Source of the DNA: Pedobacter roseus
Lineage (GTDB): Bacteria > Bacteroidota > Bacteroidia > Sphingobacteriales > Sphingobacteriaceae
Assembly: GCF_014395225.1 (NCBI RefSeq)
Contig: NZ_CP060723.1
Coordinates: 2,170,001 to 2,234,000 of the forward strand
Length of the DNA stretch: 64,000 bases
Direction of reading: 5' to 3'
Part shown: positions 32,926-37,143 of the stretch, piece by piece
Layout: each line of letters opens with the position of its first letter
Numbering within the stretch: the first letter of the stretch is position 1
Notes under the pieces: model-generated
What the model saw: only the letters and a program-made list of their open reading frames with translations
Told to the model about the DNA's origin: nothing
Database searches by the model: none
Position numbers and translations under genes: made by a program

Positions 32926-34170
32926 TTATAGGCTTGCCAATTCTGCGGCAAAAACATTTTCACTCAATTGCTCTTGTTTGTAAATCTGTCTGCCGGTATA
33001 GGCAACAAAAACAGATTGATCTAAAAGCAAATCACGGTTTTTAATCAAACTTTCTAACTTAACGGTTCCAACCACATATTTATAGCTGCTGGCCGCATAA
33101 CGCTCGCTGATGTTATCAAATTCCAATAAAGTAATCAGATCTTCATCTGCATAGCGCAAATAAACTTCTAAAAGAATTTCTTCTGTATGTTTTACCCCGT
33201 TTTCTGAATGGTATTTTTTATACTCATAACGGTAATCGTAACGTAAAGCCGCAATATCAGATAGTACAGCTGCACCAGTAGGGTGACCACCGGCACCTTT
33301 ACCATAAAAGAACTGTTTATCTGCAAAAGCCGCCTGAACTGCAACTGCATTATACTCGTTTTCTACGTTGTAAAGAAAATCATCTTTAGCAACCAGTTTT
33401 GGCAATACGTAAGTCACAATGTCTTTTGTGTTTACTTTACGTGCTGTAGGTACCAACTTAATTTTAAAATTTTTCTCACGGGCATATTTAATATCATGCT
33501 GAGAAAGGTTCTGTATACCAATGTTTAAAATAGCATCAGGATTTACAAATAAACCATAAGCATGCGCGGTAGCAATAGCCAGTTTGTATTTCGGATCATA
33601 ACCTCCCACATCCAAAATGGGGTCGGTTTCTGCAAAACCTAAATCCTGTGCCTCTTTTAATGCTGAATCGTAACTTTGGTTTTCATTAAATATTTTCGAA
33701 AGGATATAATTAGATGATCCGTTAAAAATACCACTCAGGGCATGGAACAATTCATTGTCGTAATACTCTTCCAGGTTACGGATAATTGGAATACTGCCGC
33801 AAACTGCGCCCTCGTATAAAAGGGAAGTACCATGTTCCTGCTGCAAATCAACCAATTCCTTTAAATGTGTCGCGATCATTTTTTTATTCGCCGAGACTAC
33901 ATTTTTCCCATTTTTTAAGGCTGTAGTTACAATTTCGTATGCAGCATCAGCATCATTGATCAATTCTACAATGGTATTGATCTCTGTGTTATTTAATATT
34001 TCGTTACGATCAGTTGTAAACAGGTCTTTGTTTAAAGTACGTTTCTTCCTTGGATCTTTTATCGCAATTTTGATAATCTCCAGGTTCAGGTTCTGGCTTT
34101 GGATAATATCCAATAAGCCTTGTCCTACAACCCCGAAACCAAATAAACCGATTTTTAAATTCTTACTCAT
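32926..34170 (-). CDS. hom: Homoserine dehydrogenase
   Basis: Reduces aspartate semialdehyde to homoserine, the branch point to methionine and threonine. From ATG 34170 the protein has 414 residues. The NAD(P)-binding start LKIGLFGFGVVGQGLLDII is followed by VVSANKKMIATHL, the catalytic-domain block YEGAVCGSIPIIRNLEEYYDNE and LSGIFNGSSNYIL (near 135), and EAQDLGFAETDPILDVGGYDPKYKLAI with the catalytic lysine. A C-terminal ACT-like part follows. Last gene of the metY-metX-hom unit, so homoserine supply is tied to methionine synthesis. Confidence 0.94.
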   Translation of the reverse strand: MSKNLKIGLFGFGVVGQGLLDIIQSQNLNLEIIKIAIKDPRKKRTLNKDLFTTDRNEILNNTEINTIVELINDADAAYEIVTTALKNGKNVVSANKKMIATHLKELVDLQQEHGTSLLYEGAVCGSIPIIRNLEEYYDNELFHALSGIFNGSSNYILSKIFNENQSYDSALKEAQDLGFAETDPILDVGGYDPKYKLAIATAHAYGLFVNPDAILNIGIQNLSQHDIKYAREKNFKIKLVPTARKVNTKDIVTYVLPKLVAKDDFLYNVENEYNAVAVQAAFADKQFFYGKGAGGHPTGAAVLSDIAALRYDYRYEYKKYHSENGVKHTEEILLEVYLRYADEDLITLLEFDNISERYAASSYKYVVGTVKLESLIKNRDLLLDQSVFVAYTGRQIYKQEQLSENVFAAELASL

Positions 34171-34296
34171 TGTTATTTTGTGATTACACAGATAGGAGGA
34201 TTGCACCGATACTAACTGTTCTTATTTTTGTAATTTGTTTTAAATTTTGTTTAGACATCCAATTCCTTACCTTCCGCCTTTATACCCTCAACCTCT

Positions 34297-35394
34297 CTAG
34301 GCAGTATGCTGCAATTTGATGATCTTTTTATCCCGACTTTCCTTGATAAAATTTCCGATTACATTGGTCAGGGCATCTGTTTCGATCAGGAAACCATCAT
34401 GTCCATAATCAGAATGTAAAGCGGTAAATTCTGCTCTGGTAATATGATCAGCTAGATACTTTTGTTCTGATAGTGGAAATAAAACATCGTTTTCAATACC
34501 GATTACCAAGGTATTTGCGGTGATCAGTTTCAAAGCATCAGCAATACTTTTGCGGTTTCGGCCAACATTGTGGCTATCCATTGCTTTCGTTAAATAATAA
34601 TAGCTATATGCATTAAAACGGTTAATCAGCTTTTCTCCCTGGTAATTCTGGTAAGAAGAAGAGCGGAAATTATCGGTTTTATCATTTACACTTTCTACCT
34701 GGGTACTTCCATAAGCGCTATAGGTTCTGTAACTTAATAGTGCAATGCTTCGTGCCGTTTTTAAACCTTTGCTGCCACCATTGGGTTGGTTTGCGTAAAA
34801 AGTTCTGTCGGTAGTAATGGCCAAACGCTGACTTTCGTTAAACGCGATACCCCATGGAGAATGGGCTGCATTAGTCGCAATTAAAATCAGGTTTTCGATT
34901 TTATTGGGTTCCGAAATGCTCCACTCAACAGCTTGTTGTCCGCCTAATGAACCACCAATTAACAGTTTTATATAATCGATGCCCAAATGAGTAGCTAACA
35001 ACTGGTGTGCCGAAACCATATCGCGTATGGTAAACTGCGGAAACGAAAGGTAATAAGGCAGGCCATTTACCGGATTGGTATTCAGCGGACTTGTACTTCC
35101 ATAATGAGAACCCAAAACATTTGCACAAACTATATAATGCTCCTCTGGATTGAACAAGGCATTTTCACCGAATAAACCTTCCCACCATTCAAAGACATCC
35201 GCATTAGCCGTAAGCGCGTGGCAAACCCAGATTACATTATCTTTATTGGCATTTAATTTACCATAAGTTTGATAGGCAATCTGCAGGTTGCGGATTTTTT
35301 TTCCGCTTTCTAATTTAAATTGTTTATTATAACTATATGTTGACGCAAAATTTCCCGAAGTAGATTTTACATTATCTTTTTTACTGTTGTGCAT
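34297..35394 (-). CDS. metX: Homoserine O-acetyltransferase
   Basis: Transfers acetyl from acetyl-CoA to homoserine. A 365-residue alpha/beta hydrolase fold: nucleophile Ser149 in GGSLGGQQ, the late Asp in IENDVLFPLS (near 312) and His in SDYGHDGFLIE (near 341) form the catalytic triad. The start has RNLQIAYQTYGKLN and VCHALTANADV (oxyanion region near 57). The loop GGSLGGQ differs slightly from the common GGSMGGM. Product O-acetylhomoserine is used by the metY product encoded directly upstream (44 bp gap). Confidence 0.94.
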   Translation of the reverse strand: MHNSKKDNVKSTSGNFASTYSYNKQFKLESGKKIRNLQIAYQTYGKLNANKDNVIWVCHALTANADVFEWWEGLFGENALFNPEEHYIVCANVLGSHYGSTSPLNTNPVNGLPYYLSFPQFTIRDMVSAHQLLATHLGIDYIKLLIGGSLGGQQAVEWSISEPNKIENLILIATNAAHSPWGIAFNESQRLAITTDRTFYANQPNGGSKGLKTARSIALLSYRTYSAYGSTQVESVNDKTDNFRSSSYQNYQGEKLINRFNAYSYYYLTKAMDSHNVGRNRKSIADALKLITANTLVIGIENDVLFPLSEQKYLADHITRAEFTALHSDYGHDGFLIETDALTNVIGNFIKESRDKKIIKLQHTA

Positions 35395-35438: not shown

Positions 35439-36809
<1,371 letters not shown>

Positions 36810-36827: not shown

Positions 36828-36864
36828 CTGGCAGGGCGTATCCCGATTTCTCGGGACCTTCCAG
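36828..36864 (-). terminator. Strong leader hairpin before metY (possible attenuator)
   Basis: On the minus strand CTGGAAGG and CCTGCCAG form the outer stem and TCCCGA/TCGGGA the inner one, followed by TTTTAGG. It lies between the Cys-rich ORF and metY. The U-run is short, so it may be a terminator or a translational block. Confidence 0.5.
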
Positions 36865-36896
36865 TTTGAAAGAAACAAAAAAGGAAGATTTTTAAA

Positions 36897-37025
36897 TTAC
36901 TGTATGCAACAGCACATACAAGTAACCGCACGCATATCGCAACAAATAAAAGAAATAGAAAATTGTTCTACTTTTTTCGGTTTTGCACTGGGCTCGCTTG
37001 GCGATTGAAGATTTAATGTTTTCAT
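36897..37025 (-). CDS. 42-residue cysteine-rich leader ORF between SAM riboswitch and metY
   Basis: ATG at 37025 lies about nine bases after the riboswitch's last helix. The frame reads MKTLNLQSPSEPSAKPKKVE, a Phe/Ser/Ile middle, and ends CCDMRAVTCMCCCIQ before TAA at 36897. Six cysteines fall in the last 15 residues, including a run of three. No known family is recognised. The cysteine clump at the end, placed ahead of a hairpin and a sulfide-assimilation operon, is what a cysteine-sensing leader peptide would look like. A small metal- or sulfur-binding peptide is the alternative. Translation is not shown. Confidence 0.55.
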   Translation of the reverse strand: MKTLNLQSPSEPSAKPKKVEQFSISFICCDMRAVTCMCCCIQ

Positions 37026-37033
37026 CAGTTCTA

Positions 37034-37143
37034 ATTTATATCTCCGAACAACACCTTGTTATCCGGTCAGGAATTGGCACCTTCTCTTTCTGAGGGTTGC
37101 CAGTGGGTCATCGAGCCAGTCTCTCGCCACTTCTTTATAAATC
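37034..37143 (-). promoter_or_regulatory. SAM-I (S-box) riboswitch
   Basis: On the minus strand the conserved S-box core is clear: GAGAGACTGGCTCGATGACC, CACTGGCAACCCTC, GAGAAGGTGCCAATTCCTG. P1 is formed by TTTATA near 37141 and TATAAA near 37035. High S-adenosylmethionine should turn down the downstream metY-metX-hom genes; the ATG of the Cys-rich ORF is the first start codon after the aptamer. A plus-strand frame over this stretch is a shadow. Confidence 0.93.

Follow-up and report, generated by a model that had tools for sequence, protein, structure and literature searches.

A SAM riboswitch and a tiny cysteine-rich ORF ahead of metY form a conserved leader resembling a two-input gauge of sulfur amino acids

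Riboswitch and leader-peptide control are usually regarded as alternatives. The metY leader of Pedobacter roseus raises the question of whether both may act within one mRNA. We analyzed a 64,000-nucleotide stretch (the window) of its 6.33 Mb genome; all features of the locus lie on the minus strand. A full-length match to the SAM-I (S-box) riboswitch aptamer was found at 37143-37033 (Rfam RF00162; 75.7 bits against a gathering score of 44.4; E 5.6e-16), which bears out the S-box that the original prediction had placed upstream of metY. A leader ORF of 42 codons (uORF; 37025-36897 in the ORF list; MKTLNLQSPSEPSAKPKKVEQFSISFICCDMRAVTCMCCCIQ) ends in TCMCCCIQ-stop and, just as predicted, carries six Cys in its last 15 codons, including a run of three; its ATG lies 7 nt past the aptamer by the Rfam bounds, not the nine bases given earlier. 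The 42-aa peptide matched no family in NCBIfam or Pfam.

Three stems are located at the end of the uORF and behind it. Hairpin P0 (36901..36920) is made of the Cys codons themselves (TGTATG / CATACA), and stem P2 (36858..36887), with a U-rich loop, pairs CTTCC (36887-36883) with GGAAG (36862-36858) directly past the uORF stop. Hairpin P3 (36841..36856) pairs TCCCG (36856-36852) with CGGGA (36845-36841) and is followed by a conserved TACGC. About 70 more bases separate the stems from the start of metY at 36770. The gene, encoding O-acetylhomoserine/O-acetylserine sulfhydrylase (35439..36770; TIGR01326, 677.5 bits, cut-off 495.1), has its closest named relative in Pedobacter sp. Leaf216 (95% identical). 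As for the predicted order metY-metX-hom, metY was confirmed and a metX-like homoserine O-acetyltransferase comes next (34297..35394; TIGR01392, 344.7 bits, below the cut-off of 500), while the hom-like homoserine dehydrogenase ORF (32926..34206 in the ORF list) was named by eye. Elsewhere in the window, a bacterial class A RNase P RNA lies at 686-1084 on the minus strand (Rfam, 266 bits).

In the family search, metY was matched in 166 of 201 genomes, and 90 leaders were scored, comprising 30 loci and 60 further leaders taken by coordinates. The S-box core was recognized by pattern in 84 of them, and the other six also had no Rfam match. In 71 of the 84, the ORF opened by the first ATG past the aptamer has three or more Cys among its last 12 residues; in L055 and L081, the Cys-tailed ORF opens from the next ATG instead. 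A class-wide metY search matched 60 of 296 genomes, and the wider set added 25 class-wide loci, 30 leaders, and 10 family leaders, so that 151 were scored with four duplicates left out. An S-box with its closing stem was found by pattern in 118 leaders. We applied to these the rule that the first ORF past the aptamer has at least three Cys among its last 12 residues. As a result, 93 of the 118 carried a Cys-tailed ORF, against 0.26 expected from 100 dinucleotide shuffles per leader. A Cys-rich uORF ahead of metY is therefore present beyond chance, and these leaders have what is expected of a leader peptide, a short ORF at a conserved place in which codons for the sensed amino acid abound. Ten of the 25 S-box leaders failing the rule belong to a Sphingobacterium-like genus (g16). 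Five more leaders were dropped, the pattern having missed the stem (L027, L034, L123, L156, and L157), and a Cys-tailed ORF lies nearby in all five. The remaining 28 leaders had no S-box by pattern, one of which (L125) has an S-box by Rfam far upstream; a Cys-tailed ORF was found within 500 nt in seven and was absent in 21. The uORF is thus not universal, which we count against the two-sensor model developed below.

A scan of named genomes, accepting a Cys-tailed ORF from any ATG up to 130 nt from the aptamer core and including one locus with just 140 nt of upstream sequence, detected the S-box by pattern in 77 of 80 loci and both parts in 68, although its loci overlap the other leader set, so that the scan is not an independent test. 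Both parts were found in Pedobacter (Sphingobacteriales), in Mucilaginibacter, and in Hymenobacter and Chryseolinea (Cytophagales). The check that had been suggested, a search of relatives' metY leaders for an ORF with a Cys clump, thus gave a positive answer, since frame, position, and clump recur in Sphingobacteriales, Cytophagales, and further families. Two leaders (L319 and L325) have their S-box and Cys uORF some 580-760 nt ahead of metY, with space for an intervening gene. The combination of a SAM riboswitch and a tiny Cys-rich ORF before metY is a conserved layout in many soil and water bacteria and looks like a two-input sulfur amino acid gauge.

The most economical reading of this layout is a two-sensor mRNA leader, in which SAM probably controls whether the uORF is translated and charged Cys-tRNA determines how ribosomes come to its end. 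The bacterial group of the host mostly does not use Shine-Dalgarno sequences, and attenuation has been little studied there. The closing stem P1 of the window aptamer has its 3' strand roughly between -15 and -8 relative to the uORF ATG, within the ribosome landing zone, and for this reason SAM binding should block uORF translation. The uORF starts are A-rich around -12/-13, and AAA is the second codon in 61 of 93 leaders. In Flavobacterium johnsoniae, A at -3, -6, -12, and -13 raises initiation and structure lowers it, as reported in PMC6847099. Because P1 overlaps -12/-13 of the window uORF and structure hinders initiation, closing of P1 should shut the uORF; the spacing and the positions of PMC6847099 place the closing stem inside the ribosome-binding zone, as for a riboswitch-controlled uORF. 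Two observations count against the model here: A at -3 occurs in only 44% of the 93 uORFs, and the window uORF has C rather than A at this position.

The S-box metY leader seems to have a SAM-I aptamer without an expression platform of its own, and no separate platform was seen in the gap that precedes the uORF (7 nt in the window), nor in the form of a terminator. We also surveyed S-boxes in the same genus, examining 31 of 46 from 13 genomes with genes named by eye. A uORF follows closely behind all six metY S-boxes; all ten metH S-boxes had no such ORF and, as measured by the script, were 126-172 nt away from the gene. Seven S-boxes before TonB-receptor genes had a different short ORF with RMR or RMC, and the remaining eight had neither type.

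We consider it unlikely that the two elements are independent switches, with the S-box acting on metY otherwise, through RNA decay or long-range pairing, the Cys uORF acting separately, and their adjacency reflecting history rather than coupling. Each part does occur by itself, as this explanation would have it. An S-box without a Cys uORF was found in L093, L127, L131, L133, L138, and L139, and a Cys-rich uORF without an S-box in L134, L146, L155, L334, L335, and L340. In L093, the S-box ends at 766 and the ATG of metY itself is at 777, ten bases past the aptamer, with no uORF, an arrangement that we count in favor of the two-sensor model. Against independence speak the spacing, the uORF ATG of 78 of the 93 leaders lying 7-16 nt past an ATAA-type landmark in P1, and the missing separate platform.

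The S-box-free relatives bear on the two-sensor leader from another side. In some families, the Cys uORF has no S-box by Rfam, and the leader ORFs are often both Met- and Cys-rich, at times in tandem. Among the last 20 residues, Met reaches 21% in 15 ORFs of this sort and 9.5% in 92 S-box leaders (Mann-Whitney p 9.5e-7), in a test that ignores kinship and with the 15 ORFs hand-picked for Cys from 11 loci in five families, eight of them from one family. Three S-box-free metY leaders (L340, L155, and L146) combine Met/Cys-rich ORFs with strong intrinsic terminators; L340 and L155 have two in tandem, with two ORFs and strong terminators in L340. In the same families, no such ORF was found in the S-box-free L337, L338, L158, and L164, and L336, in one of these families, has both S-box and Cys uORF. 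We also considered an antitermination pairing in L155, where the uORF end and the terminator loop share a 9-nt complement that 2 of 300 shuffles reach; it was set aside as only suggestive, since the terminator persists when the stalled state is folded to minimum energy. Tentatively, the expression platform of the SAM riboswitch may be the point where a Cys-sensing leader ORF begins, and the two would serve metY as an AND-type gauge, reading SAM and Cys-tRNA, of old origin and wide distribution in the class; some S-box-less lineages may have handed the methionine input to Met codons in the same kind of leader ORF, with aptamer and codon reading swapped.

The uORF peptide itself is conserved in a particular manner. 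Its body diverges completely between genera, and what is kept is the start near the aptamer, a short length of mostly 25-60 codons, and a Cys run ahead of the stop, the position in which polycysteine leader ORFs have it. The tails read CMCCCI/M in Pedobacter, CICMCCCC in Mucilaginibacter, RMRMCCCCACCC in Hymenobacter daecheongensis, and CMCCCCACCC in Chryseolinea serpens. The last 12 codons of 111 leaders contain 284 TGT and 210 TGC; as both are used, the amino acid is kept and not a single DNA word. Among 17 same-genus sequences, pN/pS was 0.74 in the body (codons 2-36) and 0.68 over the full ORF, the shifted-frame controls giving 0.92 and 0.79, and the tail was nearly invariant even at silent sites (pS 0.060). 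Two points here count against the two-sensor model, namely the little purifying selection on the body and, within the genus, the conservation of the clump as DNA too and not solely as protein. The original prediction was to fall if neither frame nor Cys codons were conserved in relatives; clump, frame, and place are kept, although the body is hardly constrained. The coding constraint on the body being weak, the case rests on the Cys clump, the frame, and the place.

A further point against the model is the Sphingobacterium-like genus, in which S-box and uORF are kept but the Cys rule is passed in just 2 of 12 leaders. The uORF ends exactly in RMR-stop in eight of these (L084, L094, L174, L175, and L180-L183), at the same place as the Cys run elsewhere. 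This would suit an arrest peptide, whose nascent chain ending in RMR, RMC, or CMCCC stalls the ribosome chemically (for example, through Met, Cys, or redox state) rather than through a shortage of Cys-tRNA, so that Cys enrichment is one form of an arrest motif. RMRM ahead of the Cys run in several Hymenobacter leaders, and the RMR or RMC of the seven second-type S-box leaders before TonB-receptor genes, agree with it. Runs of Cys codons behind a body of free sequence have instead the look of tRNA-sensing leader peptides, and we regard chemical arrest as improbable.

The stems were evaluated in 34 same-genus leaders, including that of the window. P0 was paired in 97.0% of cells with a double change in two of six pairs, and P2, nearly invariant, in 98.8% with a double change in one of five. 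In P3, four of five pairs have double changes; the hairpin predicted ahead of metY is thus real. Taken together, P0, P2, and P3 were paired in 97.0% of cells (91.9% shuffled; 29-54% in slid structures), with 33 double-change cells, mostly located in P3, against 8.9 shuffled (0 of 500 shuffles as high) and seven pairs with a double change against 4.1 (6 of 500), statistics that are tilted in the structure's favor, as it was derived from the same 34 sequences. Of the leaders read, those of genus g1 alone had the GGAAGG...TACGC segment, and P2/P3 as a second aptamer was discarded, no Rfam match reaching the gathering score. The stems that other genera form at this place are different ones and share no P2/P3 sequence, which we again count against the two-sensor model. 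That the Cys codons are a mere by-product of the RNA structure P0 in an untranslated ORF is highly improbable: the clump, nearly invariant as DNA in the window's genus, does form P0, and the body pN/pS is near the shifted-frame controls, but across genera DNA and structure change while in-frame Cys before the stop persists in both codons, and the place and small size of the ORF are kept.

The terminator scans separated the two kinds of leader. A first scan flagged 9 of 111 leaders; in a stricter scan for intrinsic terminators with shuffles, the S-box Cys-uORF leaders showed no excess (1 of 93 against 0.9 expected), whereas the S-box-free relatives gave 4 of 11 against 0.2. An intrinsic terminator in the window leader was accordingly rejected, its CTGG/CCAG extension before TTTT (36864-36823) not being kept in relatives, and with 1 of 93 we do not file the S-box leaders as classical attenuators. 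The pyrimidine excess behind the uORF stop, measured by base composition, is small, and a role for Rho is weakly supported by so mild an excess.

The two-sensor leader would work as follows. With SAM bound, P1 would close over the uORF start and block its translation. With SAM low, ribosomes would translate the uORF and reach the Cys codon run just ahead of the stop. If charged Cys-tRNA is plentiful, they would finish the uORF and leave; if it is scarce, they would stall at the run and alter the folding or shielding of the P0, P2, and P3 segment. S-boxes normally switch met genes off. Given this and the terminators found in some S-box-free leaders rich in Met and Cys, stalling most likely turns metY on, which would happen when SAM and Cys are both short. 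Window-type leaders lack a U-tract terminator, so the last stage of control is probably Rho-type termination or some other route without a terminator, which may also be translational. The original interpretation, an S-box with a Cys leader ORF, is supported, and we infer the joint sensing from the arrangement of the parts.

We also looked for similar leaders elsewhere in the genome. A short-ORF pattern with MCCC gave 10 matches against four in the reversed control; beyond metY, L185, L187, and L193, the other six are unlike such leaders. By eye, L185 (near C1:1105389) has a poly-Cys uORF, MNFNFIPNQLTAKQMMCCCCKTQ, and a plain intrinsic terminator before a sulfite-reductase-like gene, with an Rrf2-like regulator upstream; L187 (near C1:1628716) and L193 (near C1:6086326) have MCCC-tailed short ORFs before a PhyH-like dioxygenase gene and a TonB receptor, respectively. 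A search with TGYTGYTGYTGY gave 105 matches against 18 reversed; 4 of the 30 inspected lie near the end of short ORFs, two being L185 and L187. Upstream of a cysE-cysK-like pair, named by eye, no ORF with three Cys in its tail was found in the 665 nt scanned. A second S-box (L001; C1:2881646-2884752, minus) is followed by a U-tract terminator-like hairpin, a 24-codon ORF ending in FRMRTPC-stop that overlaps another such hairpin, and a TonB-receptor-like gene; L194-L199 have an RMR/RMC ORF at the matching position. In genome G484, an S-box lies shortly ahead of a gene that is cysteine-desulfurase-like by eye (L210).

Riboswitch and leader peptide thus appear physically coupled in one conserved leader. 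The natural series of leaders (S-box with Cys uORF, S-box only, and Met/Cys uORF with terminator) makes the coupling logic directly testable, and the survey yields a list of small leader ORFs linked to sulfur metabolism. Both parts are of known kinds, and no description of a SAM riboswitch combined with a Cys leader peptide was found in the open-licence literature searched; the accessible parts of PMC6429828 and PMC9971707 do not describe an S-box with a Cys uORF. Leader-peptide attenuation has been noted in general terms for Flavobacterium psychrophilum and Bacteroides thetaiotaomicron.

Several known systems resemble the metY leader in part. Actinobacterial cys operons have polycysteine leader ORFs with the run near the stop and no conserved terminator, for which Rho was proposed as a weak prediction (Seliverstov 2005, PMC1262725). 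The Pedobacter-type ORF is likewise short, with a Cys run near the stop and no conserved terminator; unlike those leaders, which precede cys operons or cbs, it follows a SAM aptamer, precedes metY, and belongs to a different phylum. The mycobacterial Cys leader ORF is leaderless, and translational attenuation was reported for it (Canestrari 2020, as cited in PMC9031893 and PMC13236596); the window uORF stands instead behind a 111-nt aptamer, presumably away from the transcript start. The Cys-codon uORF uORFC-8-2 before cysS of Rhodobacterales, with proposed ribosome-mediated attenuation (PMC8632094), also has tandem Cys codons within a stem; it differs from the metY leader in ending in an apparent intrinsic terminator, and the available text mentions no riboswitch. 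In the ppe2 leader of Mycobacterium tuberculosis, a B12 riboswitch acts first on a uORF that is translated and that the following gene requires, with reinitiation reported (PMC11260477); the proposed model shares the uORF as first target of a riboswitch, although the ppe2 ligand is B12 rather than SAM and the accessible text describes no amino-acid codon run. Compared with an ordinary SAM-I riboswitch (RF00162), the aptamer of the metY leader matches fully, and the start of the Cys leader ORF seems to serve as its expression platform.
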